From the NCBI GenBank assembly GCA_963457665.1, contig OY735228.1, forward strand, positions 640,001 through 704,000: a stretch of DNA of 64,000 nt, written 5' to 3'. A model generated the notes under the pieces. That model did no database searches, had not been told where the DNA came from, and saw only the letters and a program-made list of their open reading frames with translations. The DNA is from Thysanoteuthis rhombus (lineage: Eukaryota; Mollusca; Cephalopoda; Oegopsida; Thysanoteuthidae). Below, in pieces: positions 17,946-44,720 of this stretch. Each line of letters opens with the position of its first letter. Position 1 is the first letter of the stretch. Position numbers and translations under genes: made by a program.

Positions 17946-18959
17946 ATGGTTCTAATCAAACGCTTGACACCGGTTTCTTTCCTTCTCATTTTATTCCACG
18001 TCTCGGCGGCCAGCATGTACAAAACATTCCACGCTGAAGGGAACAAGTTCTTCCAACTTGTCCAGGATCCCAAAACTCATGACGTTTATGTTGGCGGCAA
18101 AAACAAAATCTACCGCCTGGATTCTACGTTGAAACTCAAGCAGGAGATAACTGTTGGGCCTATACAAGACAATCAAAAATGTTTGCCAAAAGCAAAATGC
18201 CAGTATAGTAGAACGTCAACAGATAACAATATTGTCGTGCTTGAGATTGAAAATTTCTCAAGATATCTTTTTGCTTGCGGAACGGTTGAGCAAGGTGCTT
18301 GCACGAAGTATGATCTCGCAGATATTCAGAAATCAACACGCTTTGCCATGGTTAAAGCTGAAAACTTTATTGGTAGTTCCAAATCCAGCATAGCTTTTTT
18401 TGAATCTGACCCTGTATCGAATGAAACTGTTCTCTATGTTGCTATGTCCTATGACGGACGAAACATTGACGCTTTTCCTAAAACAATGTCGGAAAGAATT
18501 ATAACAAAGTCAAAAAACGGGGTTTATAACTTGTCCTACCGTAAAAACTATTTAGGTATACCAACAAATAAAGCGATGCTTGGTACTTATCCAGTCAAGT
18601 ACATTTATGGATTTAAACATAACCATTTTATTTATTACATATCTTTGCAAGGAAATAAAACCTACATTGGTCGTGTATGTGAAAAGAGTGAATTTTATTA
18701 TTACGTAGAAATTTCTCTCAAGTGCTGGCATAAACACATCATGTATAGTTACGCGACAGCTGCAAAGTTCATTTCCAATCAAAGTCTTTTTGTAACATAT
18801 TGGAGTGAAGATAAGAAAGCATCATTTCTTTGTAATCATTCCTTCAATGAAATTCAGTCCAAAATGAGAGATACGATCAATGAATGCTACAGTCGGAGCA
18901 GTAAGAATCCCCCTAAGCCTCCATCTTGGATTGAAGGAAATAAATCATGCATAGAAACG
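17946..18959 (+). CDS. MET-like exon 1: start, signal peptide and most of Sema (aa 1-338)
   Basis: The ATG at 17946 is in a good context (A at -3, G at +4) and begins a hydrophobic leader, [14 protein letters not shown], ending near residue 23. The rest reads as the N-terminal two thirds of a Sema propeller, with early motifs such as [16 protein letters not shown], a CGTVEQGAC stretch and several N-glycosylation sequons. It ends ACG|GTGAGG in phase 0. At 1014 coding nt it is unusually large, like the large first coding exon of vertebrate MET. Confidence 0.93.
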
Positions 18960-21900
18960 GTGAGGAAAATATTTTTTTCTTTTTTCTATTATTTGTTCCA
19001 TCATTTTTGGAAAGTTATAGAAACTGTCAACGAAAACCGTCACCTAAACTGTCTTCATTCTTTAAACATGTCTGGTTATCTGTCCAACGTGAGTAAAAAT
19101 CATACCAACGAAACTGAAGAGATGAAAATTCAAACATTCATTCCTTGTTATGTCTCGAAAAAAAATGTTTTTTTAGAATATCCACTTTGAGGGTTGCAAT
19201 TTTCAATCTAAATTTATGCTAAATTAGTCCCTTAGTTTGTGTCTGGCAGCAATCACATTTGTGTTTTTAAAAAAATCTGACTTTTTTAGTGATTACTGCC
19301 CAACAAGGGGCTTGAGATGTAACTTATTCATTGATTAACCCTTCTCCAATTTTTTCTAATTGTTCACCCCCAACACAGCAAAAAGACTTTGTTCATTTGA
19401 CAGTTTCTATTCAGTGACCAACCAGACCTGTTTATCATTATTATTTTTGCTTTTTTTTATATCTTTCAGTATGGTTACAGTATCGAAGTCGATACATGTG
19501 GATATGATGAAGACAATGGCTACATTTCAGGAAATTCTCAATTATCTATTTCTGAATTTGTTTACAAAGGAAAATTCACAGCTATTCAGTCTTACGTCCA
19601 TGACGGAACTATCTTATATCTTTTGGGCACAAGCAACGGACATCTTTTGAAAGTTGTGAGTTTTCCAACTTTTTCTCTTTTTATTATTTTCAATTTTTTT
19701 TTTTTGACTACATTTTACCATCATCTTAATTTATTAGTTGCTTTGTATCGCAACTTTTACTCAGACCAATTTCCCCCTGGCAGTGAGTAAACATTATTGA
19801 TTGGGGAGTGGGGGGAAATAAGTTTTTGGTGGGGCTACATTCACTGCTGGATGCTCTGTCTGAGCTCCCAAGAATCAACCAGAAGGTAGAAGTCGAAATA
19901 TCACCCTAAAATATTTCCTCTCTTTGGTTTAGGAAGTTTAGTGTAGCTGGTGCATGTGGAGGGGGGTAACAGCACAGCGAATGGATTTGGGAAGCCAAGT
20001 TCAATCTCCGGCTGAGACAGTTTCAGTTCACTTCACATTAATGTCCTTGGGAAAGGCATGAATCCATCTCTTCCCCCAAGCTATGATTGAAATAGCTCTG
20101 GGTGAAGCGAGTGACGCCCTTCGTGCTTATCCCCTCTAAGTCTATTTCATCAATCGAAAAACCAGTAAGTAGTAATGTGATATGCGGAGAGACTGAGCAG
20201 GGACAGCTGAAGCCATAAGCAGCGTAAGGGCACTACTCTTTTTTTTTTTATGGTGCGAGTTTTTCACTTCTTTGTAAAAAATATATGTACAGCTAATATT
20301 ACATCAATGTTTTGGATTTATATCTATCATCAAAAACTATCGACCAAAAGTATCATAGGTTTCTTCAGTTTTCAAACTGGTCTTGCTGGTTGGCATCACA
20401 TGTACAGGCTGCACCAATGGAGCTAAGGGGCTAAAAATTTAAACATTTACTTATGTCTACTGAAAATGTTTTTTTTTTTTTTTACTTTTTGAAAATTCCC
20501 TCTAAAATAAATTTTTGGTGGTGGGGGTTCAATTTGCTGTTTAAGTTTATGCTAAATCAATCACTTAGTTTGTGCACAGCAGTATTCATGCTTGTTTTTT
20601 GAAAGCTCAGACTTTTTAATGATCGTTTCCTAATGAAATGAGAGAGAAGTAACATTAATTTTTCTACTTTTTTCACTTGATCACCTCCAACACTGCGTGC
20701 TGGTTTCCTTTGAGTGTCTAACCTGTTTCTTTCATTTTCATTTTAGGGCAAGGTTGATAAGGTTGATAAGGGATTCAAATTAATTATGGATACAGACATC
20801 AGCCAAGGGAGTGGGCAACCAATTCAACCAGATATGGAAATTGATGCCAAAAAAACTCATGTCTACGCCATGAGTGGCTCGAATGTAAGTTTGACATTAT
20901 CCATCCTGCAGTAGGATTTGTTTTTCAGGGAATTTGTAAGCAAACATAAGTAACATTTTTATTTCGATTCTTATTATTTTTAGTTATTTTGTCTGAATTT
21001 CTGAGATGAGGAATTATCGTTTTTCTACACTGATTCACTAGGACAAGTGTCCTCATCTTGGTTGTTTTGGTTACAATGTTCCGGTGTTGCTATGTCCCTT
21101 GTCTGCCTCCTATAGTGAAAAAGTCATATACTCAGGTTCAGTGGAAGAGGCAGACAAGTGACCTCACAGGTAAGAATTGACTGAAATGTTGGGACTGTAA
21201 CAAGCAAGATGAGGACACTAGTTGGCATAAATCAGTATTTAATTATTCTTTGACTTTTCTTTCAAAAATAACGATGAATTCGTTTTACAAAAAAACTGCT
21301 TGGGGTAGAATATGATTGGGACCGGTGCATAACGTTTCTTGGAGGGCCTTGTATTTTTGTATTTAGAGACCCTGTGTATAACATTTCAAGAATGAAAATG
21401 GACTCATGCACAAACAGGAACGAACATTAACATTGCATAATTTTCACTGCTTCAAGTACAGCCCTGGATATTGCTGATAAAGATAACTATAGTGCTTCAT
21501 TCGACCACTTTTGAAGAACAAAGAAGTTATTTATTTTGACACTGATTTATTTCCTGACCCAATTATAAGCTTTGTAAATACAAAGTTTCCAACAGGAATT
21601 GTTTACGACAAAAACTCCATACACAGCTTTAAGCCGTGGCTCCTAAAACCATGATAATGACCAAAATAAGGGTCATAGAAATGCTTTTGGAGGATGAGTT
21701 GAGAAAAGTAAGTAGACGAAAATTAAAAAACGTTAAAAAAAAAATTATGAAAAATCTTAGAAATAGCGCAAATATATTTACATCACAATTTTGGAAAATG
21801 CAGTGTCATTGAGACTAGAGCGGAAAAATGATTGTGAATAATGAAGCCTCCACAAATGGATGACAAATCCTGACATATTCTAATTTCTTATAATATTCAT

Positions 21901-24828
21901 TCTAGTATGGATTTGTGTTAGCTCAAGTTCTGCGATGAAACATTTTCATTATTCAATGAATTATGCCAACTAGAATCTTCATCTTTGCTGTTTTCAGCAC
22001 AACATATCTGCTGGAAATGTTTCTATTGAAAACTGAAGATGAGGCAACAAGTGAAGATAATTCAAGCAGTTTCATCTTTTATTTGACTGAATTCAAAAGA
22101 AATTGTTGTTAAATATGTATGACTTGGCTGATTACAAAAAAATGTTATTTTCACCCATGATATATTTATGAATTGATATAAATCCTGAATACATTCATGC
22201 AAAAACTGACAAATCTATCAAGATAGATGTATTCATTTGACATTGAGTAAACAAATATATTTATTTATATATATTTACAAAATGACAATATGAAGGTGAA
22301 AAGAAAATTAAAGAGAAAAACAAATGTTACGTATCAAATTTGTATTATCATGTGGGCATGTTCTTATGCATTTTAATGGTTGCTAGCTACCTTTTTCAGA
22401 AAACTTGCATAGAAAACTGTTCGCTGTTTCATCCCCTTACCCCTCCTCTCACAGTCCAAACCTTACTCTCACCAACACAGATACAAACACCTCCTCTGCC
22501 ACTCCTACTAAATGATCCATAACTCTCAAATATCCCTGTTTCATTTCTCTAATCTGAAATATGTAAACAGCATTCAGTTCTCTGTGCACCACTGTAAGTT
22601 CTCTAAAAAAGGTAGCTGGCAACCATCAAAATGCATCAGAAGATACTTGTGTCAGAATAAAAAATTTGGGGATATAACACTTGTTTTTCTCTTCAATTTT
22701 ACTTACCTCCCAATTATCATTTTACCAACACTTTGTCAGATCACCTTATACCAAGACAACAAACACACACACACATATATATATATATAGATCTGGTTTC
22801 CTTCACTATCAGAATGTGAAGCATTTCAATGAAACCTTTTGTGGGCCAAAATGATATGTAGTCAAGAAGCAATTACCATAAAATTATTCAGGAAAAACTC
22901 TCTTTGAAAGTCATTTTGTGTTTGGAAATGCCAGTTTTATCCAAAGCGTGATACTTTTATGACAAAAAAAATTGAGATGAAGGTATATAGTAGTCAAAAA
23001 TTGATAATGGTTCACAATACTTCATTTAATAAACAATAGAAAAATTAGTCAACTTCAGACTGATCATTTATTAAAAAGTTTAGGAAGGAAAAATGGGAAT
23101 GAGCAGAAGGCTTGCATCTCTACTACAGCCCCTATTTCATTGTTGAAAATGCGATAAATCTTATGAAAATTTGCCCTGAACTTGTGAGAAAATTAATTTT
23201 ATTGTACAAGATGTTTATGCCATTTGTAAGAATAATGATTGAAGATAATTCTGCTATAAAAGAATTTTTGTTTGCGATGTTCAGAAGTGGAAATTTATTA
23301 GAAATGATCTCTAGTGATATAGAATGACTTCTGAAGTCAACCTCGCATAGATTATGTCACAAGTAGATCTTTTGTGAGTCTTTATGCCAAATATCAGGTC
23401 AATCAGCATTGTAGTTTTGGTGTGAAATAAGCGTAAGTAGGCTCAAATATTAGTATGGATGATTTATATATACACATAAATAATTTATCACATGAATTGT
23501 ATTTTTCAGGTTATCCGATTTCTTTTGAAGTCCTGCAGTGTTTATACAAATTGCTCCACGTGTGTAACAAGCAATGATCCCCTCAATTGTGGCTGGTGTC
23601 ATGATAAATGTACAATACACAGTGAATGCAGCAATGGTTGGATTCCTGACTACTGTGTTCCTCAAATAACTTCTGTAAGTCTTGAGTTGTATTATTTTCT
23701 ATATCTTCCTTTTTGATCCACCATATTCACATGTGAATAATACGAGAAACTTATCATTAAAGAAATTCAGGTCAAGATTTGTGGGTAACATTACACTGAA
23801 GTGTAGAAATAATAACACGTCTATGTTACACTGAAACCGGTGGAATTGACGAAAAAAGATAATTGAACCCATTGTTTTAATTTGATCAAGTGTTTAACTA
23901 TTTTTTTCCAGATCTAAAGTTAATCTAATTAAAGTTTTGTTTTTTTTACAAAAAACAAGTAAATTTTGCTGATTTGGTTCATCATTTACAAATTTTGCTG
24001 ATTTGGTTCATCATTTACAAATTTTGCTGATTTGGTTCATCATTTACAAATTTTGCTGATTTGGTTCATCATTTACAAATTTTGCTGATTTGGTACATAA
24101 TTTACAAATTTTGCTGATTGCTACAAAAACAATGGTTGCATTCAAGATCATGTACTTGAATAGAGAGAGTATTTCTGTACACTTATCTAATACTTTCTTT
24201 GTATCTTCCTATGCTGAGTTTACCAAGTACTGGGCAGTAATATTCAGGGCATTAGTTTATATTTTGAAAGTTGAAAAGCTGTACAGATTCAGTATTAAAC
24301 ACTGGTATATACAGGGTTAGGAGTTCAAATAGTGTTCTATGAAATTAGGAAGATTTTTAAAAATGAAAAATATGAAACATTTAATCCGAGGAGGAGTATG
24401 GTTATATCAATCAAATCAACAAATAGTGGACTAAGCAGATAAGTCAGATACAAATTCTTCTCTTTTTTTGAGTGTCGGTCTTTCTGTGAGTGTGTCCGGG
24501 CATTCCTGGTCACTTTTTTTGCGCTTCAACCTTGAAAATTTGTACAAGTCCGCCATTAGGCACCATCTAATAGTTGGTTTGCGTTTTTCTTTTTTTTTTT
24601 CCAAAAAGTGCTTTTTTGATCTCTCTGGTCATTTTGGACCAGCAATGGCCAAAGCTTGGGCTGGTATTTTTAAATAATTTCAGATAAAATACTGATTATC
24701 AGAAATTATCTGAAAAGTTATTTAAATAATCTTAGTTTAGAAACTTTTCCCTTTTTTTTTTTCCTTCGATAATTTCAGATAATTTTTCCTGGTACATGCG
24801 CTGGTGCGAGGTACGGATATCTATCTAT

Positions 24829-24905
<77 letters not shown>

Positions 24906-27900
24906 AAGAGAGAGAGAAATGTATGCATGTGTATGTTTGTGAAGCTATTTCTCCACCACCCACACACACCATACAATTTGGCGCTCATTAAATTTGCCCT
25001 TCACCATCCAACCAACCCTCCTCCTCCTCCTGTCCTGACTGAACATTCCCCAACACAAACAAGGTGCCATTATTGTCGGAAATATTTCCTTTTTGAGAAA
25101 CTGTTTGTTTTGTAGGTCAGCTACAACTCCCCTTCCCCGTTGCCAGTCCTTCTCACCAGGATCTGCGGAAATTGGACTTGGATTATCTCTCCTATACACA
25201 TGGCAGATTATCTCTCCACCTCCTCATGCACCCCCCCTCATCTACCACTGCCTTTGACACTCTGGTCCTTGTCTGTCTATTGCTTTCTGTCTGTCTGTCC
25301 TTTTGTATTTCTTTCTCTTTGTTTTCTTCTCCAAGCCAGATTGTTCGATGTTTGAAATAAGTCAGGCCAATCATTAACTGCCAATCAATGACAGGCTTAG
25401 ATTCTATAGCCAATCGTATGCAAGTTACAATTTTATCTGACCTTTTCATGGTCTTTTTACTACATGCACTCTGTTGGGACAGATCTGTCTAAACATTGTT
25501 TATCTCTCTGATCAACATCTCTCTACTGCAGATCTGTCTAAACATTGTTTATCTCTCTGATCAACATCTCTCTACTGCAGATTAGTCTAAACATTGTTTA
25601 TCTCTCTGATCAACATCTCTCTTCTACAGATCTGTCTAAACATTGTTTATCTCTCTGATCAACATCTCTCTTCTACAGATCTGTCTAAACATTGTTTATC
25701 TCTGTGATCAACATCTCTCTTCTACAGATCTGTCTAAACATTGTTTATCTCTCTGATCAACATCTCCCTACTGCAGATCTGTCTAAACATTGTTTATCTC
25801 TCTGATCAACATCTCTCTACTGCAGATCTGTCTAAACATTGTTTATCTCTCTGATTAACATCTCTCTTCTACAGATCTCTCATAGTCTATCTAATCAATA
25901 TCCCCTCTCATACACGTCATAAATGCAAAAAACAGAGATGACGCACATGAGAGAAGATGTGCTCTTGGGTATCCGCTGGGAGGTGCAAGCGGGTCATTTA
26001 TCCATTATCCTTTTATCTTCAAAAGTAGCAACAGATGCCCATGGATGTGCATGCTCCCCCAGAACTAGATTTGACACTTCAGAATACAAAAGATACTACA
26101 GCAAGGCCAGAGGAGAGGACAGAGTCAAAACATAGTTTGGAAAGCAAACAAGAAAGATACAGAAATTTGTCTGAATGAACCACATATTAAGATTTGAAAT
26201 ATTTGTTGTAGCCTTCTAGCTGAAAAAATCAAAAGTTAAATAATCACAAAAGGAAGAAGTGGCTTGAAATTTATGATATAAGTTTATGCTGAATTGGCCC
26301 CTTGGTTTGTGCCAGGGAGAGTTCATGCTTTAGTAGTCACTGTCCGAAAAAAGGCGAGAGAAGTAACTTATTCATTGATCACCCCTTTTTCCTATTTTTC
26401 TAATTAATCACCCCAGCATGTTGCCAAAAGATGTCTATTACAGTACAGTTTCCATTGAGTGTCTGTTATTGCATTCCTGTGGTAAAGCTGTGCCATGCAT
26501 AGGCAGGCTGACAACGAGACAGACCAACAGAAAAAATAAAGAAACATAGTTGACAGGTTTCAGATAATCTGGATAATACCACCGCTGCCACTTAGTGTAG
26601 TACATGGTCAGTGACAAGATATGGCACCGAATAATTGGGGAAGAATAGAGGCTGAGTTTAAGTGCGTGATTTGATCTTCTGCCATCTGTGAGAGCTCTAG
26701 TAGCTCAGTCAGTAGAGCAGTGCCGTACTATTAGAAAATTATTCATTTCTGGAATGGAAACCTTTGCCGCTTTGTTTTTGTTATCACCAAACTGAATTTT
26801 TTTGCATTTCTAGATTAGCCCAACAAAAGGCCCTGTAAAAGGTTGGACGAAGTTGACAATAAAAGGGAAATATTTTGCAAATGGCAATCCTACGCGTCAA
26901 ACCACTGTCAAAATCGGTAGTGCACCTTGTTATGTGAATGGAACCAACAGTACAAAGTGAGTATTTTGGTATAAGATTCTTTTTTGCTATTTCTGCCATC
27001 TATCAATAATTCTAGGACTGATAATGTAATTTTTCAGGGATTTTAGAATGAAAATTGACTAAAATATCTTTTTTTTTTACAAAATGAACCATATTGGGAA
27101 TAGGCACCCCAGATTGATCAAATGTCAGTCATTAATCCATTGTATCCAAAGTGCCATCTGTCTATATCATAAGCAGTGTGACCTTTTCTATTTGTTCCTC
27201 TTTTGATTCTCTGTCTGTAACTTCAATTGGAAGGGTCTATTGTTTCAATTGGTGGGTAAGAAATGTTTTCATCAGCAAAATATGAATTCATCAGACTTTT
27301 ATTAATCACACTATCGAAACAATGAACTATTCCAGTTGAACAAAGTCAGTCAATTTTTGATGAATCCTCTGGCAAAACTGAGTGGATAAACATTTATTTA
27401 CAATGTTAATGGTAGCTACTAGTGAACTATTTAGTTAAAAAGTAAGAAATTGTAAAAAAACTGCTCAAACTCTACAGAAACATTATTATGTATCTTTGCC
27501 AAATACATTTCAACCTCCAATAATGTATGATATAGAGTCGAAAGTATTGAAGTATGCAAAGTACTCATGTGTAATCTCAGATCATTTTTGGACTCTCATC
27601 CCTGCCTCTTCTAGGCCCCATAGGCTCAGGCCTACTCAGTCTAATGGTTAATCTGCCACAGTGTACAACATAGTTTATCATTTTGTTTTATGAATAATTG
27701 TCTGTGTTCAAAATTTGAAATTTTTGTTGATCTCTTTTCTCAGTATCTTTTGCTACACAACAAAGGATGTCAGTGTAAAGAAAGGAAATGTTCAAGTGAA
27801 AATCAGCACCAAAAGTATTTATCCAAACCAACCAAAGATTGAAGGAGAAGGCAGAAGCAAAGAAATCTTTTACTTTATGGTAAATATAGGTTTATGATTT

Positions 27901-33900: not shown

Positions 33901-36900
33901 TTCTCATGATATTCAAAATGGCTAGAAGCTGCAAATCTTTGTTGTATTCCAAGTTATTCTCTAATTTTGTCATCACATGCTTGGGACCAAAAAGCCTGTG
34001 GGCAACAGAAGGAGTGCAGTCCGTAGAGAGTATTTTTACTTCTAAGATAATCATTGACGTTTTTTTGTCTGAAGTTTATGAATCAAAGGTCAGTTACTTA
34101 TAACAAAAAGTGAATCATAAAAAATGTTTTTTGGGTGTATTGATTTTTCTTTATCATTTATCCGTTATTTTTCAGTCCTATATTTTCCCTTAATTACATA
34201 AATCACAAGTACAGGGATGCCAAAAAAAAAAAGAGTTGAACAGCTTGATTTCTCTGTAACTTGAACCAAATGTAATGAATGAACAATCTAAATAGTGAAT
34301 GAAAGTTTTATTTATGGAAATCCGTTACATCAAATGTGGAAAATCATATTGGCTGAATGACGTCCCTCACCCTTTCTCCCAATCATGAGCTTTTCTGTAG
34401 CATTTCCGTTTCAGGATGATGATAGTGTTGTCCAGACAATCAATGGAGAGCCCTCACTATAGGACAATGATCGAGAGTTTTCTGATGCCACGGCTACCAA
34501 AAGACTACAATATGTGAATGTCAATACTTGAGCAAAAATGGACAGCATTTTTCCAATTGCGTTGTATCAAATAATAGTGATGTGAGATTGTGACCGCACT
34601 CACCATATTTGAGCACCCCAGAGTTTTTTCTTTGGGACCATCTTCAGGATAAAGTGTATAACAATTACCCTCTAACCAGAGTGGCCACAAACAGAACGTC
34701 TGGCATCATATAGCAGTAATAAGTTAAATTCTTGAATCACTTGATAACACTTCATAATGATCGAAACTCTTCCGTGAATGGAATGAAAAATAATGGAACT
34801 CTTTTGTGAATTAATTTTTTTTTTTTTTTTAACTTGAAAATTGGCCTAAAAGGTCAAAGGAGTTAACTTTAATCAGAAGTCATTACCTATGATATTAAGA
34901 TATGAATTATATGAATGTAAGAGTTAAATATCTGAAAATTATTTCTTAACAACAGAGTAGTGGGAGTATTGAAAAGATTACCAGAATATGTAGCACTCTT
35001 CCCTGATGTTATTATTTCTAAAAAGAATTATATGATGTGATAATTATTGCAACACCACAAATCTTTGAGGCTTTTGATAAAGTGTGAATAAGATTATGAT
35101 GTCTGTTTATAAGTGCAACTCATTTCTTTTTCTTCTTTTTTTCGTACCAAATAAATTCATTGTGTATTTCATTTCTGTAAATGGTTTTCGTTTTTTTAAT
35201 CTTCAGGTCAAAATTGGTTACCGGACATATAATATTGGCTGGGTCATTTTCGTATTGACAAGCTCGGCTCAAGTGAATATATCTATTATTGTCTTGATGG
35301 TGATTTTGATCAGTGTGATGATTATAGCTGTTGTCCTTATTTACTGCTTGTGGAAGAAGAAATTGTTGTTCTTTAAGGAAAGGAGCAGTTTACCTACGGC
35401 CAGATACACAGTAAATGATCAGGTCCACTTTGGTGAAAATGGCAGGTTGATTATCAACTCAAACGGTAGGAAATGAAAATATTTTATCATCTACACAGTG
35501 CCCTCCTTCCCACCTACAAAAATATGCATATGTTAGAGTAAGATTATGAAACTAACGATTTTGTGAAAGCCCTGAATATCTTGGTATTTTCATGAAATCG
35601 CTAGTTTTTTCAATCAGTGCAGTATTGGTTAACAAGCTTTTGGTGCTGACTATTACCACTCTGAGTTCGATCCTCACTGGTTGCCCCACTATTATTCTGG
35701 CCTCGTGTCAAACTAAGCTGTATATATATATATTGTAAATTCTGAAGCAGAATATACTTGATATTTTTCAAAGTCTAGCTTAGTTCGACACAAGGCCTCA
35801 GTAGTAGTTCAACTAGTGAGGATCTAACTCATTAAAGCAGTAATAGTCAGCATTGCAACATTGATTGTGAAAGTAGGGATTTGATGAGATATCTAAAAAT
35901 GTTCAGTGTTTTGATGAAATCCCTAGGAATTTAACAAAATAACTAGTTTCACAATCATCCATACATAATTTGTTAATAACAGCTTTGATTTGAATCGCAC
36001 ATTCAGCCTGGAAAAAATTCAAATAGCTTTAAACAAACTGAGGATAAAATTTCACCCATCATATTCCAGGTTCTTCTTTTTGTTGCTTTTTTACTGATGA
36101 GATTTTTTGCCTCGTGTTTTTATGACCTTTTCTATCAAAAATAATAATGCAATTCATTCGTTTACAGAATACACAGAACGTCAAAACTTCTTACCTGTAA
36201 CAACAGTTAGTAACGATGCTACAAGTTGTCCAGTGATTGATGAAAGTATTCTCTTGGAGTTAGGGGACAAAAAACTTCTAATACCAAAAGAGGCTTTGCA
36301 AATTACAGAAAAAATTGGTCAAGGTAATTTACTTGGGTTTTTTTTTTCTGCTTTGTTTTATTAATGAACAATTTTTCACTCTACATTTTTGATAAGGTCA
36401 GTTTATTTTGTTTTAGATAAATTGCTCAAACCTTTTTTGCTTTGACAAGTTTTTCAATAGATTCATTTTAATAGACTAAAGAAATGAACTAAAATTGTCC
36501 TCCTATGCATAATTCTCTCTAAGCTGTGTGTATACACATGTTTTACAACAAAGGAAATTAATGTGTGGACTAAAGATTAGTTACCTAAAATAATATAGTA
36601 ATTAATAGTTATCCTTATAAATAACTTTAAGTAAGATGATATTTCATGATTACACTTTATGAAAATAATCTTTTAGCTAACTGTGCCTCTTAGTCATTTT
36701 TCTTTTTTTTTTTGAAATGCCACATTTTTACATCACTATACATATAAGTTTACATTTGCACAAGCATTTAGTATTTTATCTCTGGAAAAAAAATGACATT
36801 ACTTGAGATTTTTGCACATCATTTATAAGTAAGAAATAGAGAGAACATTTGGAGCTAGAGGAATGACTTATCCTTCGGATTTAGCTTGAGTTTAATGAAG

Positions 36901-39900
36901 TTTTGCGCATAAACTTTATCACGATATCTCTTGAATATCTTATTGAATCTCTTACTAAATTGAATGCTTTTTCATTTCAGGTCATTTTGGCTGTGTCTAT
37001 CGTGCTCTGTATCGCAAACCTGGGGAGAAGGGAGAAATGCTGGTGGCTGTAAAAACACTTCACAGTGAGTTCTTTTACTTGACACTGAAATTCAGGAACA
37101 GCTTGATACCGCTCTCAACTGACAGAAGAGCTCTTCATTGAAAGAATCAAATTTTGTTAGACTTATTGTCAGATGGAATTTTTTTTTTAATTTACCAAAA
37201 GTTTGAAGGGAGATAATTCTGATCAGTAGTTTTCCGTTTTTATATTAACATTTAAATTTTCTCGTATGAATTCAAGAGTCAGAGCATCTAATACTATTTG
37301 ACAATGTATTTCAAAAGGTTATAATGACGATTCACTTTGAATGAATTTAAACAATGATTTTCGAGTAAGCATCATTTCACTGCAATCAAAATCATACAGT
37401 CTTGTAAAATATGTGAAAACCCGAATGATAGAAATGTTTATACTACTTCAAGAGCTCTTCGGCTGGTTCAACATATGCATACTGCATAATGTCGGAGAAT
37501 TGACTGACCCAGGTCAGTCATAGCATCAGTATACTTCTTTGGGGGTTGGGAGATCTCTACTGCTGTCTCTGGCAATCTGCCTAGGAGAAGGAAATTCCAG
37601 CAGAAAACAAAACTTTGGAACCTTTCATTTTCTTGACTTTTCTCTTTCAAATCCAAATCAAAGTCCACAACCACAAAATTTCAGCTTGAAAAACAAAATG
37701 GCTATTATTCCAACTTTTGTTTTGACAAACTAATCTCTTCTTCACATCCTAGATGTTGTGAACTCAGCATTTCAGCTGATCCATTCTTCTGCTCTTATCA
37801 GGAGTATAATTCAAGAAAAGCAGCAAACCTTTCTCTTTCAGGTGAAGAAAAATTGTGTTCATTAATGTAGCTACCAGATCAATCAATTTCTGGAACACTA
37901 GGGACACAAATGTAACCAAACAGCTAACCAAGTATTAGAATTTGATTACAAACTATACACAAGGCAGTTCCTCCACATTGATTCTAACTCAACATGCGTT
38001 TGGCTGATAAGCCGATACGTGCAGCTTCCTCCAATCTCTTCAATCCCCAATAATGCTCCGAGTCAATTATCTGGACTTCATCCCTGATTAGGTAATGCAT
38101 ATCCTTCTGGCTTCAGATATAGTCCACCACTCTTTTGACTCTCTTATGTTCTTCAAGTCTGACCAAGAGGATTGGCTGAAAGATTGGAAAGTTCGGATCT
38201 GTTTGTCTAAATAAAAGTTGGAGTGTTAACGACTCATCACAAAGTTAGAGACAATGATATGATGGCTTTTAACTCGAACATTTTAATTTTGTACTCTATG
38301 TATTCCTTCAACACTTGTCTGTGCTTTCAATTGAAGTCTATATCTTTTATTATTATACAATCAAGTGTTTTTGTTTGAATTCTAAAGAAATCCCTTTTTC
38401 CTTTCTTTCTTTCAGAAGACCATCCGCGAGATATGGACATTGATGGATTTTTTGGTGAAGCATTAATTATGAAGAATTTTGATCATGAGAATATCCTGTC
38501 CTTGATTGGAATCTGTTTAGGCAAAGACCACATGCCATTGGTGGTCCTCCCCTACATGGCTCATGGCGATCTTCTCTCGTACCTCAGAAATGTTGACAAT
38601 GTAAGTCTCTTTCAGAAATGCATTCATTTTTCGTCGTTTGCAGCCAAGCCAGTCAGAGGGCTTAGCGGTAGGGAAAGGGAGGCTTTTAGTTTGCATTATT
38701 GAACATAGTGTAGAGATCGGTCTTCTCTTTTGGAAGATTGATAGGATCACTTCAGGAATTTCACTACATAATCGCTAGCTACTTACAGCACCTAGTATTC
38801 CCAGATAGTCACCCTAGGTACTGATCAGAAATGTCAACAATGTAAATTTCTTTCTGAAATACCGAAAAGACATCATCTTGAACTGATCAGTACTGACAAA
38901 CTTGACAGTCATTGCTGTATTTTCCTGTAAACTCCTTGGAGAGCCTAAGGCCACAACCACACTACATCAACCATCTCATTTCTGGGAAATTCCCCTCTAC
39001 TGGATCCATGTTACTCAAGCCATTTGCCTCTCAAAACAGGGTTCTTGTATTCCTATCCTGCTTTCTGATTTTGTTGTTGGAAGGTTGTTGAGTGAATTGG
39101 TTTTCCATAGGCTTTTACTAGTATGCGTCGTGAACCCCTCAGATGAGAAATCTTCTCAGCTGGGCTTTTTCTTGGATGGTCGTTGAGGCACTCACTGGCT
39201 TACGGCTGCTGCAGTTTCAGGTGCAAGTAGGATTTTTGGGGTGGAGATGATGTAAGGTCTATAACTACACAGATCTCTCTCGCTTCTCGATACAAAGTTG
39301 TCTCCCTTTATTGATCAAGTCTTCCAGCCGATAGATTTGGCTACAAATTTACAAGTAATCATTTATTTTTCATTACAGGGTTTTTTTTTTATGTACCCCC
39401 ACCCCCAGAAGTATAATTTTTAGTTCTAGAGGATCTGTTCCCCCATACTGTACTTTTCTATTGCACATAAATGGGTAGGCTTAGGATCAATCTTTGATTC
39501 CCAGGGCATCTCAAAGGACTGTAAACAATTTTGTCTCGGCCAACATTAATTAATTTCTTTCTATGAATCTCTGCTGATCTCTCTATAAATATCAATAATC
39601 CGTCTATTTCATACGAATTTGATACTACTTAGCTGATGTACGAGTGTGGGCTCCTCACTGAGCCCCAACATTGTGTTTAATTTGCCCTCATTGGGTAGCT
39701 AATAAATAAATACCTCCATTTTACAAAAAATTTATTTCACATATGTCTACATTTTTCTTTGATTCAGCAACCGACAGTGAAGGATTTAATCATCTTTGGC
39801 ATCAGCATTGCATCAGGGATGGATTATCTGGCCGGCCTCAAGTTTGTCCATCGAGATTTGGCTGCTCGAAACTGCATGTAAGTAATTTTAATAGCTTAAA

Positions 39901-42900
39901 AGGAAAATTCAAGTTCATTGTTTATTTCTGATCCTAGTTTTGAAAATCAAGTTGTTTGAAAATGATCATTTTGTCACTAATTTCATTTAGGTAAATTTTT
40001 TAAACACATTTTTTTTCTCTTTTTTTGTTCCAAATTCTATTATCGATAAATAATAATTCAGTAAAATCTGTTGAAATACATTTTGTATAGCCTAATTGAA
40101 AAGAATAATTTTGGAATGATTCACTTACCTTGACATTGGAAGAGATATATGTATTCATTCATAAAAGACTTTCTCCTTTCAATATCTTTGAAAGTTCTCA
40201 ATGAATTTAAATGACATTTTGTATGAAGATGGACTAAGGATGAAATGATCAAATTTTAGGATACATCCAAGAATTCATTTTTGATCCAGATATAGATTTT
40301 TCACGTGCCAAGAAGAGGTAAATAATAGTCAGAAATATGGAAAATCAAAACCTACATTTTAGCTATATATGAACTGATTTTCAATCAATCTCTGGTTAGT
40401 ATGAGCATTGAAATAGGTATGCACTCTCTGAGTATGTTATGGTTTTACATGGAAAGACATTTATTTTTTTGTCTTGACAGGCTGAATGACAAACTGGTCG
40501 TGAAAGTTGCAGACTTTGGTTTATCACGTGATATTTATGAACGAGATTATTATAGCAGTGATAATAAAAAGTCAAAATTGCCGGTCAAGTGGATGGCCTT
40601 AGAAAGTTTGGAAAATGGAACCTACAATACAAAAACAGACGTTGTAAGTTGTCCCTTTTTTTCAATAGTTATCGATCTTGATGTCACATGAAGGTTTCTT
40701 TTGAGTGACCGACTACATTTGTTTATTCATTTTGATCATCCGAATGTTTTTGCAGAACAATAAGATAAATGCACTTTGATATTTTTGTCACACTTTAGTA
40801 CCTAGTCTGGAGTCAACTTTATTTTCCTACTGTAACAACAAGAACAATCCTCACCAAAATTAGGGATGTAAATCAATATGTAAGATTCACATCCCCCTAT
40901 GGTGATTTGAACTCTGAACCAACTGATTGCCAGGAGGCTATCTTACTGACTGGGCCTAATTGACAAGTCTTGGATATTAACAAAAATAAATTGATACATT
41001 TTTACAAAAATAATATGTATTTTTATTTTCCATTTAAAATATATACAATACCAAAGTTTCAATTATCATCTCAATTGGAATAGAAGTTGGAGAGAAGTTT
41101 GGTCCTGCAGCAGCTACTCTTGAAGAAACGGTCAAAATGTTGTAACGTGGAAATAAAGAATAATCTCTGGATGAAAGTTGAACTTTTCTCTTTTGACTCG
41201 GGATGCTTATTATGCATGGCACTGCTCTACCAATTGAGCTACTTTAGCTCTTACAGCTGGCACAAGATCAAATTCAGCCCTTAAACTTAAATTCTGCCAG
41301 CCATAAAAGTTCTCGTAGTTGGTAGAGCATTGCAATAGATCGGCAGTTTCCGAAGGTGAAAGGGATGCGGGTATGAATCTCACCTAGAGCTCATTCTTTA
41401 TTTCTGATATCTGCTGTTCACTAACTACTGTAGACTGGTAGTTTGAACACAGTTGTGTTAAAAAGCCACTGAAAAATTTAAAATGAAAGAAAATACCAGT
41501 CAAAAATTAATAACGGTTGACAATGCTTTATATATGCTAATAAAAATAGATCTGGATAATGCTCCAACTATGTTTGTTTTTCGTAACATTATATAAAGTT
41601 TTTATTTGATAAACAAAAAATATTCTCTATGAAACCATCATTTTTAGTTTGTCCAAATTTTTATATTCTTGTACTTCCTCTGTCCCATAATAGTTGTCAG
41701 ATTTAGCAAATGAAATGTACATGCAAATGTATCGTCTATTATGTGACAGAAGTAGTAATTGTTGGTGAGCAAAATTTATTGTATGAATGAGACTTCCTTC
41801 TCCTGCACTTTCCTCCTTCTCCTCTTTTCAGTGGTCATACGGTGTTGTACTGTGGGAACTGTTCACGAGGGGAGTAAATCCTTACCCGACCGTCGACAAT
41901 TGGGATATGCCCAAGTATCTAAGATTAAGAAGAAGAATGGACAAACCTGATTACTGTCCAAACAGAATGTAAGAAGATTTTCATTTTGATATTTGACTCT
42001 TTCTAACATACCTCTGTCAACAAAGTTGGAAGAGGTATATGTATTCACTCGTATCTGTCTGTCTACACGATATCTTCAAAAGTTCTCAATGAATTTCAAA
42101 GGCATATTTCCAAATGGTGGAACTCTTCACAAGCTAAAGAAAAAAATTGATTAAATTTTGGGGTGAATAGAGGAATCTTTTATCAAGTGAGAAATGTTTT
42201 TATATATTAACTCTTAAATTCATAGGCCAATTGTAATTAACCAGGGAACCTCTCAATGAATAGAATTGAAAATCATAGAACTCTTTTGTGAATCAAATAG
42301 AAAAAAAATATCACCAAATGGTCAAATGAAGCTAATTATTGTCAGGGGTTATTTCCCTTGATAATGATCGTCAGTCTTTTTTTATGAATTTGAGAGTTGA
42401 GATGATAGTCCGAAATACAGAAAATCAAAACTTATCTTTTTATTCCCCTTGCGTCGTAGCTATATATGAACTGATTTTCATTCAGTTTTTATTTAGGGTA
42501 TGGTGTTGACAGAGGTGCTTTCTCATTATGGTCTATTGAATGTATTTGTAACTTTATTCTATTATCAAGATATTAAAGCAATCTTTGATTCTGTTTTAAC
42601 TTTCAAAGATTTAAAGAAAAGGATTTAATACCACTGATAGAAATATGTCTGACATTTCACTGGTGGTATTACTTCTGTTTCTCTTTGATCTTTTTACTGT
42701 GGCTATGACTCTAGTTTCAAATATTTTAATATATATATGTTGTACATATATCACATAGATACCACACTTCCATTAATCACTTTTAAGATATCAACTCCTA
42801 ATAAAAGCTGAAATTGCTAACCTTAAACACCAAGTTGTTCATAAAAGCAAAAGGCAGTATGATACTATTGTAATGGAACAATTGCGGAATCACTAAATCA

Positions 42901-44137
42901 GAATTGATAGCCTGCAAAGCATTTAGCACTGTGCCTTTGAAATAGTGTGGCTGGTAGATGATAATACTTTTTGGTACTTAATTATTCGTCCAATGGAGTT
43001 TCTATTTTGACGGTTGATCATTTCACTAATTGGATGATCTTCTTGATTTTCTTTTTTGTGTTTTTTTTTTTTTTTTTCTTTGAGTTTTTTAATCAATCAT
43101 TAGAAACCGTCAACATAGGTTCTTATAGTTTTCAAGTTGGTGTGCTCAACTATTGTGTATAGGCCACACCAATAGAAATAGATGACTGAAAATTCAAATA
43201 TCTGCTCCTTGAATGTAATAGATTCTTAGTTTGTTTTTTGTTTTTTGTTGTTGTCTGGGGGTTGGGAGCAATTTGCAGTATAAGTTTATGCTAAATTGAT
43301 CCCTTAATTTTTGTACAGCAGCATTCGTGCTTGTTTAGTTTCAATTAAGACTTTTTTAGAAAAAGTAACTAATTCATCGATCACTCTTTTGTAAATTTTT
43401 TAATTGATCACCCCCAACATGGCATGCTGCTAAAAGATATTGAGCATGTGATGGTTTCAATTGAGTGACTAACCAGAACTGTTATTCATTGATTTACTGG
43501 GACTAGGGTCTTTATTTTGGTTGTTTATAATCAACAACAATCTGTCGGTTGTACCCTCTGGCCTTCGTCAGGTGTCGGTCATAGTCATTAACCCCTATGG
43601 ATTAAATAAAACATTGATAAATAAATAACCGTTGTTGTTGTCGTCGTCATCGGCAATAATGATATTAATATTAATGATAATAATAATAAGAAGAAATTGT
43701 TGTCTAAATTTCTCTACAGTTTCAGAAACAATAATATACTCTTAATGTCATAAACCACTTGATCTACTCCTTATTAACTGAGGAACTCTTCTGTGGATAG
43801 ATCTTTTTTTTCAAATTATAGAACTCTTCTGTGAACGGAATTTCTTGAGAATAAGAAAAAAGAAATTGGTGCTTTTAGAAGGAAGATAACTTCAACCAGT
43901 TTTTATTGCCCTTGATATAAAAACAAAATTTTCTTTGAAATTTAAAAGTTGATATTTTTAAAGGTACTTTTTTTGTATTTCAGTTATGATATTATGCTTT
44001 GCTGTTGGGAATTTGACCAGAACTTACGGCCGGATTTTGCTACAATTGTTAAAGAACTGACTGAACTGAGTGAAATGGAGAAACACAGGGACCTTCCATG
44101 CTATCAAAAAACGCCTTATGAAAATGTTGAGTGTTGA
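17946..44137 (+). CDS. MET/RON-family receptor tyrosine kinase (HGF receptor-like), 19 coding exons, 1280 aa
   Basis: The nineteen exons entered individually below sum to 3843 nt and stay in frame. The product is a single-pass surface receptor. It has a signal peptide (about 1-23), a Sema beta-propeller (about 25-450), a PSI domain (454-498, CGWCHDKC at 473-480), four IPT/TIG domains (about 502-594, 595-682, 683-780, 781-870), a membrane helix (890-914) and a tyrosine kinase (about 995-1260). The kinase is intact: GQGHFGCV loop, K1028, E1046, HRD 1121-1123, DFG 1141-1143 and activation-loop Y1149/Y1153/Y1154. [13 protein letters not shown] (1072-1084) and [12 protein letters not shown] (1162-1173) are close to human MET. 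Vertebrate MET/RON are near 1390-1400 aa; this one is shorter, mainly in the Sema loops and tail. Domain order is seen; ligand and signalling are inferred from the family. Plexins share Sema/PSI/IPT but have no kinase, so they are excluded. Confidence 0.95.
19196..19432 (+). mobile_element. Dispersed repeat R1, copy b (receptor intron 1)
   Basis: It contains AAATTTATGCTAAATTAGTC, GTGATTACTGCCCAACAAGG, GTAACTTATTCATTGATTAA and ends GTGACCAACCAGACCTG at 19430. Exon 2 begins at 19470. Confidence 0.7.
19470..19655 (+). CDS. MET-like exon 2: Sema, later blades (aa 339-400)
   Basis: The acceptor is ATCTTTCAG (AG 19468-19469) and the donor GTT|GTGAGT; both ends are phase 0. The [12 protein letters not shown] stretch matches the LGTSEGRFMQVV region of vertebrate MET Sema. 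A copy of dispersed repeat R1 ends about 40 bp upstream of the acceptor. Confidence 0.92.
19935..20165 (+). mobile_element. tRNA-like SINE in receptor intron 2
   Basis: A tRNA-like block (AGTGTAGCTGGTGCATGTGG, then AAGTTCAATCTCCGGCTGAG as box B) begins near 19940. A body runs to a CCCTCTAAGTCTATTTCATC end. It is a different family from the SINE at 861. Confidence 0.45.
20318..20725 (+). mobile_element. Dispersed repeat R1, copy c (receptor intron 2)
   Basis: A near full-length copy, from AACTATCGACCAAAAGTATC to GAGTGTCTAACCTG at 20725. Exon 3 begins at 20747, so the end of R1 falls in the branch-point window. Confidence 0.7.
20747..20884 (+). CDS. MET-like exon 3: end of Sema (aa 401-446)
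   Basis: The acceptor is CATTTTAG (AG 20745-20746) and the donor AAT|GTAAGT; phase 0 at both ends, 46 codons. It opens with a small duplicated KVDKVDK stretch and ends in MSGSN, the position of the last Sema strand before PSI. An R1 repeat copy ends about 20 bp before the acceptor and supplies a CTAAC sequence at branch-point distance. Confidence 0.9.
21030..21240. mobile_element. Fold-back element R3 in receptor intron 3
   Basis: AGTGTCCTCATCTTGGTTGT (21046-21065) is mirrored by AAGCAAGATGAGGACACTAG (21202-21221). The outer arms ACTGATTCACTAG and ATAAATCAGTATTT also pair loosely. Related pieces lie at 21965-22045, 27900-27990, 28470-28510 and 43498-43585. Confidence 0.6.
22765..22792. repeat. 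(CA)n(TA)n microsatellite
   Basis: Six or so CA units run into TA units. Confidence 0.85.
23510..23674 (+). CDS. MET-like exon 4: PSI domain (aa 447-501)
   Basis: The acceptor is ATTTTTCAG and the donor TCT|GTAAGT, phase 0. It encodes the cysteine-rich PSI knot, with the diagnostic CGWCHDKC motif at 473-480 shared with vertebrate MET, then the PQITS linker into IPT1. The intron upstream is about 2.6 kb and the one downstream about 3.1 kb. Confidence 0.94.
23960..24119. repeat. 29-bp minisatellite, about 5.5 copies (receptor intron 4)
   Basis: The unit AAATTTTGCTGATTTGGTTC plus ATCATTTAC repeats with near identity; only the last full copy has changes. It starts about 285 bp after the PSI exon. 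Confidence 0.95.
24829..24905. repeat. (TA)n(TG)n microsatellite
   Basis: About thirty TA units are followed by seven or eight TG units. Confidence 0.95.
25481..25880. repeat. 49-bp minisatellite, eight copies (receptor intron 4)
   Basis: Units start at 25481, 25530, 25579, 25628, 25677, 25726, 25775 and 25824, and a partial ninth follows. Each reads AGATCTGTCTAAACATTGTT then TATCTCTCTGATCAACATCT and CTCTACTGC. Two unit types, CTACTGC and TTCTACA, are grouped in runs. Confidence 0.97.
26268..26475 (+). mobile_element. Dispersed repeat R1, partial copy d (receptor intron 4)
   Basis: It begins TAAGTTTATGCTGAATTGGC and runs through GTAACTTATTCATTGATCAC to CAGTTTCCATTGAGTGTCTG. Confidence 0.65.
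26640..26745 (+). mobile_element. tRNA-like SINE head (receptor intron 4)
   Basis: A leader (GATTTGATCTTCTGCCATCT) precedes a box A-like TAGTAGCTCAGTCAGTAGAG, ending about 70 bp before exon 5. The same leader and box A occur inverted at 41195-41290 and degraded at 45590-45660. Confidence 0.6.
26814..26956 (+). CDS. MET-like exon 5: IPT1, first half (aa 502-549)
   Basis: It begins [18 protein letters not shown], the classic start of an IPT/TIG immunoglobulin-like fold. The acceptor is TTTCTAG (AG 26812-26813), the donor AAA|GTGAGT, and the exon ends in phase 2. It contains two N-glycosylation sequons (NGT, NST). Confidence 0.92.
27744..27879 (+). CDS. MET-like exon 6: IPT1, second half (aa 549-594)
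   Basis: The acceptor is TTTTCTCAG and the donor ATG|GTAAAT. It enters in phase 2 and leaves in phase 0. It gives the closing strands of IPT1 ([20 protein letters not shown]) and the linker to IPT2. Confidence 0.9.
28140..28510 (+). mobile_element. Dispersed repeat R4, copy 1 (receptor intron 6)
   Basis: It shares with 53140-53430 a box B-like TAATCCCTGAGTCAG, GAGATATCCCCTGACATGGA, GGATTGAACAAAGGGTTCAG and GAAGGTTACCGTTTATAAC, ending in an R3-like GATAAGGACACTAGTCC. It is probably a tRNA-derived SINE. Confidence 0.55.
28968..29104 (+). CDS. MET-like exon 7: IPT2, first half (aa 595-640)
   Basis: It starts [18 protein letters not shown], a textbook IPT opening with the PTSGPxSGGT motif. The acceptor is TTGACAG (AG 28966-28967), the donor CAAAA|GTAAGT, phase 0 in and phase 2 out. 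Confidence 0.93.
30115..30345 (-). mobile_element. Dispersed repeat R1, inverted copy e (receptor intron 7)
   Basis: The reverse complement follows the R1 order. Here the tRNA-like end TAGCTCCATTGGTACAGCCT is best preserved, which suggests this strand is the transcribed one. Confidence 0.55.
30744..30911 (+). CDS. MET-like exon 8: IPT2 end and IPT3 start (aa 640-696)
   Basis: The acceptor is TTATTACAG and the donor AAAAG|GTACAA, phase 2 in and out. It finishes IPT2 ([27 protein letters not shown]) and opens IPT3 ([14 protein letters not shown]). The HRRRH cluster is not a canonical furin RxxR site. Confidence 0.9.
31797..31899 (+). CDS. MET-like exon 9: IPT3, middle (aa 696-730)
   Basis: The acceptor is TTTTTTTTTCAG (AG 31795-31796) and the donor GAG|GTGGGT, phase 2 in and 0 out. 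The product [20 protein letters not shown] corresponds to the MET IPT3 core strand. The GTGGGT donor is weaker than its neighbours. Confidence 0.9.
31918..32050 (+). mobile_element. Dispersed repeat R1, partial copy f (receptor intron 9)
   Basis: It runs from AAAGGCAAGAGAAGTTACTT to ATTGAATGACTAATCAGACC and ends at about 32050, 21 bp before the acceptor dinucleotide of exon 10. Confidence 0.7.
32073..32321 (+). CDS. MET-like exon 10: IPT3 end and IPT4 start (aa 731-813)
   Basis: The acceptor is TTTTCTGCAG (AG 32071-32072) and the donor AAG|GTAAGG, phase 0 at both ends. It contains the cysteine pair and LFCKIPP strand of IPT3, then [12 protein letters not shown] opening IPT4. An R1 repeat copy ends 21 bp before the acceptor and carries CTAAT at branch-point distance. 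Confidence 0.92.
32378..32450. repeat. Small fold-back related to the 2431 hairpin (receptor intron 10)
   Basis: ATCCTCATCTTTGTTGTTT is followed, after about 15 bp, by AAAACAACAAAGGTGAAGAT, its inverted copy. Confidence 0.75.
33070..33225 (+). CDS. MET-like exon 11: IPT4 (aa 814-865)
   Basis: The acceptor is AAATTCCAG and the donor CTG|GTAAGA, phase 0, 52 codons. It carries IPT4 strands ([18 protein letters not shown]) with the paired cysteines TSCL and IYCKP. Confidence 0.92.
33495..33905 (-). pseudogene. Mariner/IS630-type transposase relic in receptor intron 11
   Basis: Read on the minus strand, broken frames give [16 protein letters not shown], the degraded form of the mariner HPPYSPDLAPSDF motif that holds a catalytic aspartate. 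Downstream come an FFPRR stretch, a DCFEK segment and EYFEGD near the end, in the transposase order. Stops and frameshifts make it inactive. The central part before the catalytic motif is shortened. A second copy is at 51985-52390. Confidence 0.6.
34770..34910 (+). mobile_element. Dispersed repeat R2, body fragment (receptor intron 11)
   Basis: GAATGGAATGAAAAATAATG, GAACTCTTTTGTGAAT and AAAGGTCAAAGGAGTTAACT match the middle of the R2 copy at 42005-42560. Confidence 0.5.
35207..35465 (+). CDS. MET-like exon 12: stalk, membrane helix, juxtamembrane (aa 866-951)
   Basis: The acceptor is AATCTTCAG (AG 35205-35206) and the donor AACG|GTAGGA, leaving in phase 1. The helix runs from about I890 to W914 and is followed by the stop-transfer KKK. 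The upstream intron (33226-35206) holds a mariner-type relic and a partial R2 repeat; the next intron holds a fold-back element. Confidence 0.93.
35535..35965. mobile_element. Fold-back element of about 430 bp (receptor intron 12)
   Basis: The inner arms, about 78 bp long (35643-35721 and 35782-35860), pair well, for example CTGACTATTACCACTCTGAG with the complement of CATTAAAGCAGTAATAGTCA. The outer ends GATTATGAAACTAACGATT and AATAACTAGTTTCACAATC also pair. Each arm carries a box B-like GAGTTCGATCCTC. A short TA run sits in the loop. Confidence 0.75.
36168..36323 (+). CDS. MET-like exon 13: juxtamembrane and kinase start (aa 952-1003)
   Basis: The acceptor is CGTTTACAG (AG 36166-36167) and the donor CAAG|GTAATT, phase 1 in and out. 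It encodes [11 protein letters not shown], then the kinase entry LQITEKIGQ leading to the glycine loop. The DYR Cbl-binding motif of vertebrate MET is not seen; EYTER is the nearest tyrosine context. Confidence 0.92.
36981..37064 (+). CDS. MET-like exon 14: glycine loop and catalytic lysine (aa 1004-1031)
   Basis: A short 84-nt exon with acceptor CATTTCAG and donor CACA|GTGAGT, phase 1 in and out. It completes GQGHFGCV and carries VAVKTLH with the ATP-anchoring lysine K1028. Confidence 0.95.
37065..38415 (+). other. Receptor intron 14
   Basis: A 1.35-kb intron. The stretch 37740-38200 is more complex than its surroundings and may be an old insertion, but no family is recognised. Confidence 0.5.
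38416..38600 (+). CDS. MET-like exon 15: kinase N-lobe and hinge (aa 1032-1093)
   Basis: The acceptor is TTCTTTCAG (AG 38414-38415) and the donor AAT|GTAAGT. It includes the alphaC glutamate E1046 (FFGEALIM), [13 protein letters not shown] and the MET-family hinge [13 protein letters not shown]. Confidence 0.96.
39768..39877 (+). CDS. MET-like exon 16: catalytic loop HRDLAARN (aa 1094-1129)
   Basis: The acceptor is TTGATTCAG and the donor GCAT|GTAAGT, ending in phase 2. It contains [12 protein letters not shown], with catalytic D1123 and N1128. Confidence 0.96.
40110..40445 (+). mobile_element. Dispersed repeat R2 copy (receptor intron 16)
   Basis: It contains GGAAGAGATATATGTATTCA, ATATCTTTGAAAGTTCTCAA and the 3' block AGCTATATATGAACTGATTT, ending about 40 bp before exon 17. 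Confidence 0.6.
40481..40643 (+). CDS. MET-like exon 17: DFG, activation loop, APE region (aa 1130-1184)
   Basis: The acceptor is TCTTGACAG and the donor GTT|GTAAGT. It carries [16 protein letters not shown], with tyrosines 1149, 1153 and 1154 matching the MET YxxxYY loop, and [13 protein letters not shown] copy of repeat R2 ends about 40 bp upstream. Confidence 0.96.
41195..41400. mobile_element. Head-to-head pair of tRNA-like SINE heads (receptor intron 17)
   Basis: The left head is on the minus strand (box A CAATTGGTAGAGCAGTGCC read from 41240 down). The right head is on the plus strand (GTAGTTGGTAGAGCATTGC at about 41318, box B-like GGGTATGAATCTC). The spacer between them also contains inverted GCTGGCA / TGCCAGC. 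Confidence 0.6.
41832..41968 (+). CDS. MET-like exon 18: kinase C-lobe (aa 1185-1230)
   Basis: The acceptor is CTTTTCAG (AG 41830-41831) and the donor GAAT|GTAAGA, ending in phase 2. It encodes [14 protein letters not shown] and PYPTVDNWD, matching the WSFGVLLWELMTRG region of MET. Intron 17 upstream contains an inverted pair of tRNA-like SINE heads. Confidence 0.95.
42005..42560 (+). mobile_element. Dispersed repeat R2, longest copy (receptor intron 18)
   Basis: It starts ACCTCTGTCAACAAAGTTGG and GGTATATGTATTCACTCG, passes GAACTCTTTTGTGAATCAAA, and ends with AGCTATATATGAACTGATTT and TGTTGACAGAGGTGC. The last phrase is an inverted echo of the first. Confidence 0.65.
43070..43480 (+). mobile_element. 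Dispersed repeat R1, near full-length copy g (receptor intron 18)
   Basis: It runs from AACCGTCAACATAGGTTCTT through TAAGTTTATGCTAAATTGAT to TTGAGTGACTAACCAGAACT. An R3-like fragment (43498-43585) follows at once. Confidence 0.7.
43984..44137 (+). CDS. MET-like exon 19: kinase end, docking tail, stop (aa 1230-1280)
   Basis: The acceptor is TTGTATTTCAG (AG 43982-43983); the stop TGA is at 44135-44137. It encodes [18 protein letters not shown] (final kinase helices, conserved W and RP) and a tail of about 20 residues. The tail has two tyrosines, Y1270 (YQKT) and Y1275 (YENV). YENV fits the Grb2 SH2 consensus YxN. In MET the two docking tyrosines are seven residues apart; here they are five apart. 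Confidence 0.95.
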
Positions 44138-44149
44138 ACAACAGAAGCA

Positions 44150-44720
44150 CAAAACAGCACTCATAAGAAAAACATACATCTCATCAAGCAGTGAAAAACC
44201 TTATTTTGGTTCAAGAACTAACAAAATATCCAACTTGTAAGAAAATCATACGTCTCATCCAATGGTGAAAACCTTTTTTTGGTTCTTGAAATTGACAAAA
44301 TTGCTCTCTTTTTCCAAAAGATTTTGATGAAATACTTGCATATTTCATCGAGCAGTGAAAAACCTTTTCTGGGTTTTAGAAATGACAAAATTGTTCTTTT
44401 TCTCAAAGATTTTGAGGAAAAACACTTACACATCTCATCAGACAGTGAAAACCCTTTTGAGGAGGTTTTAGAACTGATGAAATATTGGACTTGTAAGAAA
44501 AACACACGGTGAAACACTTTCTTTTGTTTATTTTTGTTTTGTTTGTTTTTATAGAAATGACAAAACTGCTCTTTCTCCAAGAAATTTTGAAGAAAAGCAT
44601 ACGTCTCATCAAGCACTGAAAAACTATCAGCCTTGTAAGAAATACACATGTCACATCAAACGGTGAAACACTTCTTTTTTTTTTTTTTCGGAAATGACAA
44701 AATCGCTCTCTTTTTCCAAG
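44150..44720. repeat. Degenerate tandem repeat just after the receptor stop codon
   Basis: CATCTCATCAAGCAGTGAAA-type phrases recur near 44180, 44252, 44345, 44433, 44602 and 44652. Between them lie AAATGACAAAATTGCTC and TTTTCCAAAGATTTTGA phrases. The periodicity creates a 143-codon open frame on the minus strand (44218-44649) that repeats an FSLLDE-like motif. I read this as a by-product, not a gene. Confidence 0.75.

Follow-up and report, generated by a model that had tools for sequence, protein, structure and literature searches.

Results

The window, the whole 64-kb stretch of Thysanoteuthis rhombus DNA analysed here, carries a Met-type receptor gene on its + strand at 17946-44137. Rebuilding the gene from the sequence confirmed the prediction as complete and intact: 19 exons, the first opening with an ATG at 17946 and the last closing with a stop codon whose final base is 44137, encode 1280 residues with no stop or frameshift across 3843 nt. 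The 18 introns are 173-3139 nt long, 18 of 18 have GT-AG borders, and the phases are consistent. The first-pass annotation had described 19 in-frame exons and a 1280-residue protein. Its end points and exon count were known to us beforehand, its exon list was not, and coordinates, exon count and length all agree with the rebuilt model.

Exon 1 (17946-18959; all exons are on the + strand) encodes residues 1-338, which comprise a putative but probable signal peptide and the larger part of the Sema propeller. Sema continues in exon 2 (19470-19655), which was aligned to two 'lgn' contigs, and ends in exon 3 (20747-20884), whose start may be a few codons off. Exon 4 (23510-23674) holds PSI, residues 454-487, at 23531-23632. 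The IPT borders that follow are our interpretation of the alignment to human MET. IPT1 is divided between exons 5 (26814-26956) and 6 (27744-27879). Exon 7 (28968-29104) has the first part of IPT2, and exon 8 (30744-30911) has its end, the start of IPT3 and the IPT2 furin slot near residue 655, where the pattern is absent in T. rhombus. IPT3 continues in exon 9 (31797-31899) and ends in exon 10 (32073-32321), where IPT4 begins, to be continued in exon 11 (33070-33225). The membrane helix (about 35276-35344) and the start of the juxtamembrane region lie in exon 12 (35207-35465), and the juxtamembrane tyrosine Y953 and the beginning of the kinase, up to the P-loop, in exon 13 (36168-36323). The rest of the kinase occupies exons 14 (36981-37064; GHFGCVY and the VAVK lysine), 15 (38416-38600), 16 (39768-39877; catalytic loop HRDLAARN), 17 (40481-40643; DFG, and activation-loop tyrosines Y1153/Y1154 at 40548-40553), 18 (41832-41968) and 19 (43984-44137), the last of which also encodes the tail, with a docking-type motif, YENV, at 44117-44128, before the stop codon that ends at 44137.

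The predicted domain order is Sema, PSI, four IPT, a single membrane helix and a MET-type kinase, as the first-pass annotation had proposed; the assignments draw on Pfam, alignments to solved structures and a model of exon 1. The kinase domain (995-1255) scores 303.6 bits with Pfam and PSI (454-487) 25.8 bits, above the cut-off. Three TIG/IPT stretches are individually above the cut-off. Among solved structures the IPT region as a whole aligns to plexin-A1 and the human MET beta chain, and the fourth IPT was detected in that comparison alone. As Pfam alone falls short for Sema (19.3 bits against a cut-off of 23.7), the N-terminal assignment comes from two other comparisons. Residues 25-489, Sema and PSI, align to plexin-A4 among solved structures (121 bits), and an AlphaFold2 model restricted to the 338 residues of exon 1 (36-row alignment, pLDDT 88.6) retrieved with Foldseek the Sema domains of plexin-B1 and plexin-A first, then those of MET and RON, among the matches listed. 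The membrane helix is predicted at about residues 889-911, with the hydropathy maximum (3.4) at 890; the peak before residue 860, which is N-terminal, reaches only 1.6.

The best solved-structure relative of the whole protein is human MET (447 bits, E 1.1e-132), and 2933 of 6549 candidate proteins match the product at E ≤ 0.001, which excludes chance. Kinase-only PDB chains run MET (about 311 bits), RON (290), Mer (234); one EGFR construct scores 322 bits, which is the sum of two stretches of about 160 bits from its two kinase copies, and otherwise the order stands. The ectodomain scores higher against plexin-A1 (230 bits) than against human MET (139) or RON (82), and the N-terminal Sema piece is about 27% identical to human MET. 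The catalytic K, E, HRD and DFG of the kinase are all in place.

T. rhombus Met shares 73% identity with a 1244-residue protein encoded in one frame by a 5470-nt 'lgn' contig, and 67% with one of 1280 residues, also in one frame, from a second such contig of 4657 nt. As frames of this length are unbroken in contigs so short, they look like spliced mRNAs. Within ten residues of the junction, 16 of the 18 junctions have no indel against either contig, 12|13 and 13|14 among them. At 2|3 T. rhombus is longer than the two contigs by 4 and 7 residues, and a 9-nt tandem repeat adjoins, hence our caution over the start of exon 3. At 11|12 only contig protein P0001 differs, by two residues. The Octopus protein, which is more distant, shows indels of one residue near 2|3, 3|4, 8|9, 11|12 and 12|13.

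Elsewhere in the window, Pfam gave nothing credible for other genes in 10 of the 47 open frames of at least 90 aa, a set that includes some of the Met gene (best E 0.015, below cut-off). At 44268-44458, starting 131 nt after the Met stop codon, a 90-bp unit is present in about two tandem copies. The sole Rfam match at gathering score in the 64 kb is a tRNA match at 56874-56936 on the - strand (33.7 bits against a gathering score of 29), possibly a tRNA-derived repeat.

The kinase tree had 48 rows: the T. rhombus gene, 44 of the 120 homologues listed, human MET, and P0026 and EGFR as outgroups. T. rhombus, the two 'lgn' contigs, Octopus and Argonauta form a five-row clade (100/100) nested in molluscs and an annelid (95/96). 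The Mets are split from the two outgroup kinases at just 88/88, and the outgroup branches are long. For the Sema tree (47 rows) a chiton row was omitted as too short and three plexins were added. The five-row clade is again at 100/100, and molluscs and annelid at 84/87. The three plexins form one clade (98/86) attached among deuterostome Met rows, and the positions of amphioxus and the nemertean disagree with the species tree, so the deep branching of the Sema tree is unreliable. The two trees agree at the cephalopod and mollusc level.

A kinase-plus-ectodomain tree had been proposed as a check in the first-pass annotation; in our two trees the kinase groups with mollusc Mets, as does Sema. 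Judged by the tree with its two outgroup kinases and by the order of PDB bit scores, the kinase is assigned to the Met family. The suggestion of a Met-type receptor in a lophotrochozoan also stood: the gene is complete and its source is a cephalopod mollusc. Vertebrate contamination was considered and ruled out, as Octopus and Argonauta are the gene's neighbours in both trees. The genome also has a plexin-like gene (L005, G000:C42:36390715-36393909), which groups with plexin-A1 and A4 (98/86). Its first exon ends, judged by eye, at the same place and phase as Met exon 1 (C-x-x-T, phase 0).

The Octopus vulgaris and Argonauta hians members of the clade (P0003 and P0004) are both annotated as 'hepatocyte growth factor receptor-like'. 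The Octopus protein is 51% identical over 98% of the T. rhombus query and that of Argonauta 55% over 61%; all three share the juxtamembrane motif NEYTERQ and the tail motif YENV.

The motif alignment had 120 rows, T. rhombus and 119 of the 120 homologues listed, with P0026 omitted. The furin pattern RX[KR]R occurs nowhere in the T. rhombus ectodomain, the Sema site included, and is absent from 94 of the 120 rows, among them the two 'lgn' contigs, Octopus and Argonauta. It is in the Sema slot in 3 of the 120 (skate MET, shark RON and P0094), in the IPT2 loop slot near T. rhombus residue 655 in 17, and elsewhere in six, three of them ticks with the pattern near residue 637. All 15 species-named rows with the IPT2 pattern are gastropods or bivalves; other named gastropods and bivalves are without it. 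The pattern suggests cleavage, and as both furin slots of its relatives are unoccupied in T. rhombus, its Met is probably a single-chain receptor. Vertebrate MET and RON, the two-chain receptors of HGF and MSP, have a furin site in Sema, while T. rhombus does not. The 'full vertebrate-like architecture' claimed in the first-pass annotation holds for the domain order and not for this site.

The tail motif Y-x-N, which binds Grb2 in human MET, is present in 91 of the 120 rows, and 12 of the 29 rows without it have tails of fewer than 15 residues. T. rhombus has tail tyrosines Y1270 and Y1275, with the Y-x-N-V form at the second only; vertebrate MET/RON has two docking tyrosines in the tail, Y1349/Y1356. 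A juxtamembrane tyrosine placed similarly to Y953 is common among 45 rows, and its position presumably resembles that of the Cbl site of human MET.

Met rows among the homologues listed come from molluscs, an annelid, a nemertean, arthropods, echinoderms, a hemichordate, amphioxus and vertebrates. The arthropod Mets, with Sema, IPT and kinase, comprise at least seven chelicerate rows and one millipede row (P0032, P0038, P0040, P0041, P0045, P0051, P0053 and P0062). The eight are 1337-1461 residues long, with P0045 labelled partial, and form one clade in the kinase tree (96/98) and in the Sema tree (98/96). Arthropod proteins named HGF receptor-like or similar belong, among the matches listed, to a horseshoe crab, spiders, mites, ticks and a millipede.

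The T. rhombus genome has 13 kringle matches and at least 138 trypsin matches (150 of 189 candidates scored). One locus, C20:52973024-53019184 (L021, L015-L017, L019 and L020), has three kringles, each split in two exons at the same place. No trypsin match lies near 53 Mb among the at least 138 listed, which, as the count is a lower bound, is weak evidence of absence; a lenient regular expression applied to both strands of 52.92-53.08 Mb gave a single His-type match, at 52972556, which we take as chance. Among solved structures, the top scores of the joined kringles are with plasminogen (329 bits) and HGF (259 bits), as might be expected of any tandem-kringle protein. In a protein search with them that gave 400 matches, no named cephalopod was among the 120 listed, most of which are nameless and all of which are within about 434 aa. 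A second locus, G000:C46:30344377-30389521 (L014 and L056), has a C-terminal kringle half at 30.344 Mb and, further along that strand, trypsin matches (30.373-30.390 Mb) in which the serine motif CQGDSGGP is intact. These may possibly be one protease, either like SVH-1 of Caenorhabditis elegans or like neurotrypsin. We regard the C20 and C46 loci as weak candidates for a Met ligand.

Sema pieces score higher against plexin-A1 than against human MET in 39 of 45 rows (39 of 43 invertebrate rows). The six nearer to human MET are the nemertean, Physella, two sea urchins, shark RON and skate MET. We dropped these scores as evidence for a semaphorin ligand, since the plexin piece from the N-terminus is the longer of the two and identity differs little between them.

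Discussion

The intact gene, its domains, its placement and its conserved motifs lead us to identify it, with a probability of about 0.95, as the cephalopod orthologue of the bilaterian Met receptor tyrosine kinase. Like vertebrate MET and RON it combines this domain order and kinase family with twin activation-loop tyrosines and a Y-x-N tail. The roles we assign to those tyrosines and to YENV follow human MET. By that analogy, the Sema-PSI-IPT ectodomain of a probably single-chain receptor, neither furin slot being occupied, would sense an extracellular ligand; receptor dimerisation would then allow the kinase to phosphorylate Y1153/Y1154, and YENV in the tail may recruit a Grb2-type SH2 adaptor.

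Other readings of the locus have to account for the same evidence. That this is a decayed or non-signalling copy is very unlikely. T. rhombus does differ at positions where its closest relatives are conserved (LRLRRRM against LKLGRRM, and KGW against EGG or AGG), and its end branch in the kinase tree is 0.046, against 0.016 and 0.024 in those relatives, but a reading frame unbroken over 3843 nt, canonical splice sites and intact catalytic residues argue against decay. We think it even less likely that the gene encodes not a Met but a Met-LP receptor, in which a kinase follows a complete plexin ectodomain. The preference of the ectodomain for plexin-A1 over human MET is what such a receptor would give. 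The 19 contiguous exons have one PSI match and four IPT, where the plexin layout is longer, and no complete plexin ectodomain precedes the kinase; the two 'lgn' contigs share this layout, and the three plexins form a clade of their own in the Sema tree (neither tree includes Met-LP sequences).

Least probable of all is a plexin fragment wrongly joined to an unrelated neighbouring kinase gene. The exon joins in T. rhombus are predicted from genomic DNA alone, which leaves room for such an error, yet both halves are in one frame in the two 'lgn' contigs and in the annotated Octopus and Argonauta proteins, and of the junctions leading from the ectodomain into the kinase only 11|12 departs from a contig, and from just one of the two.

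Mollusc and invertebrate Met is already known. The part of PMC6374515 open to us describes Met with Sema, PSI, four IPT and kinase in the annelid Capitella and the mollusc Aplysia in 2019, a layout that by this description is like that of T. rhombus, and places the origin of Met in the bilaterian ancestor; annotated Octopus and Argonauta copies also exist. The spread of Met over protostomes and deuterostomes in our data fits an origin before these lineages split. The first-pass annotation had argued as much for the complete receptor, should the source be a mollusc or relative; the spread of taxa bears this out, although the conclusion is not new, being that of the same part of PMC6374515.

The position of Ecdysozoa is different. 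Met is stated to be undetectable there, as far as the accessible text of PMC6374515 goes, and the eight arthropod rows, as predicted proteins, contradict that statement. The accessible parts of PMC5161311 and PMC11305532 call C. elegans SVH-2 c-Met-like and give SVH-1, whose protease triad is intact, as its HGF-like ligand. By that description this is a Met-like receptor kinase with a kringle-protease ligand in a protostome. The first-pass annotation had the main ecdysozoan models lacking Met; by the arthropod rows and the description of SVH-2, not every ecdysozoan is without it.

A literature search lying mostly outside subscription journals gave nothing pertinent beyond PMC6374515, among the matches listed, on Met or its ligand in cephalopods or on Met in chelicerates, and nothing pertinent beyond it on furin sites in mollusc Met. 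Relative to the accessible part of that paper, our analysis adds the arthropod Met rows, the furin-like site in IPT2 and the kringle genes as weak ligand candidates. It also contributes a complete cephalopod Met gene and its exon structure; protostome members of the family have been published but have had little study. T. rhombus Met is a true, intact and ordinary member of that published family, and its interest lies in the questions of ligand and processing rather than in the presence of the gene.

A chordate survey, in the part of PMC6337849 available, finds HGF and MST-1 first in lampreys, with no orthologue below vertebrates, so the ligand of T. rhombus Met is probably another. We tentatively suggest, while thinking it rather doubtful, that Met predates the vertebrate ligands and that protostome Met, single-chain in cephalopods or cut in IPT2 in other molluscs, has an activator other than HGF, whether an SVH-1-like kringle protease, a kringle-only protein or a semaphorin. 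If this is true, the C20 and C46 kringle loci would be the cephalopod ligand candidates. With Met found across bilaterians, HGF and MST-1 confined among chordates to vertebrates as far as the available part of PMC6337849 goes, and SVH-1, the single ligand described from a protostome, a kringle protease, the ancestral ligand and processing of Met become testable.
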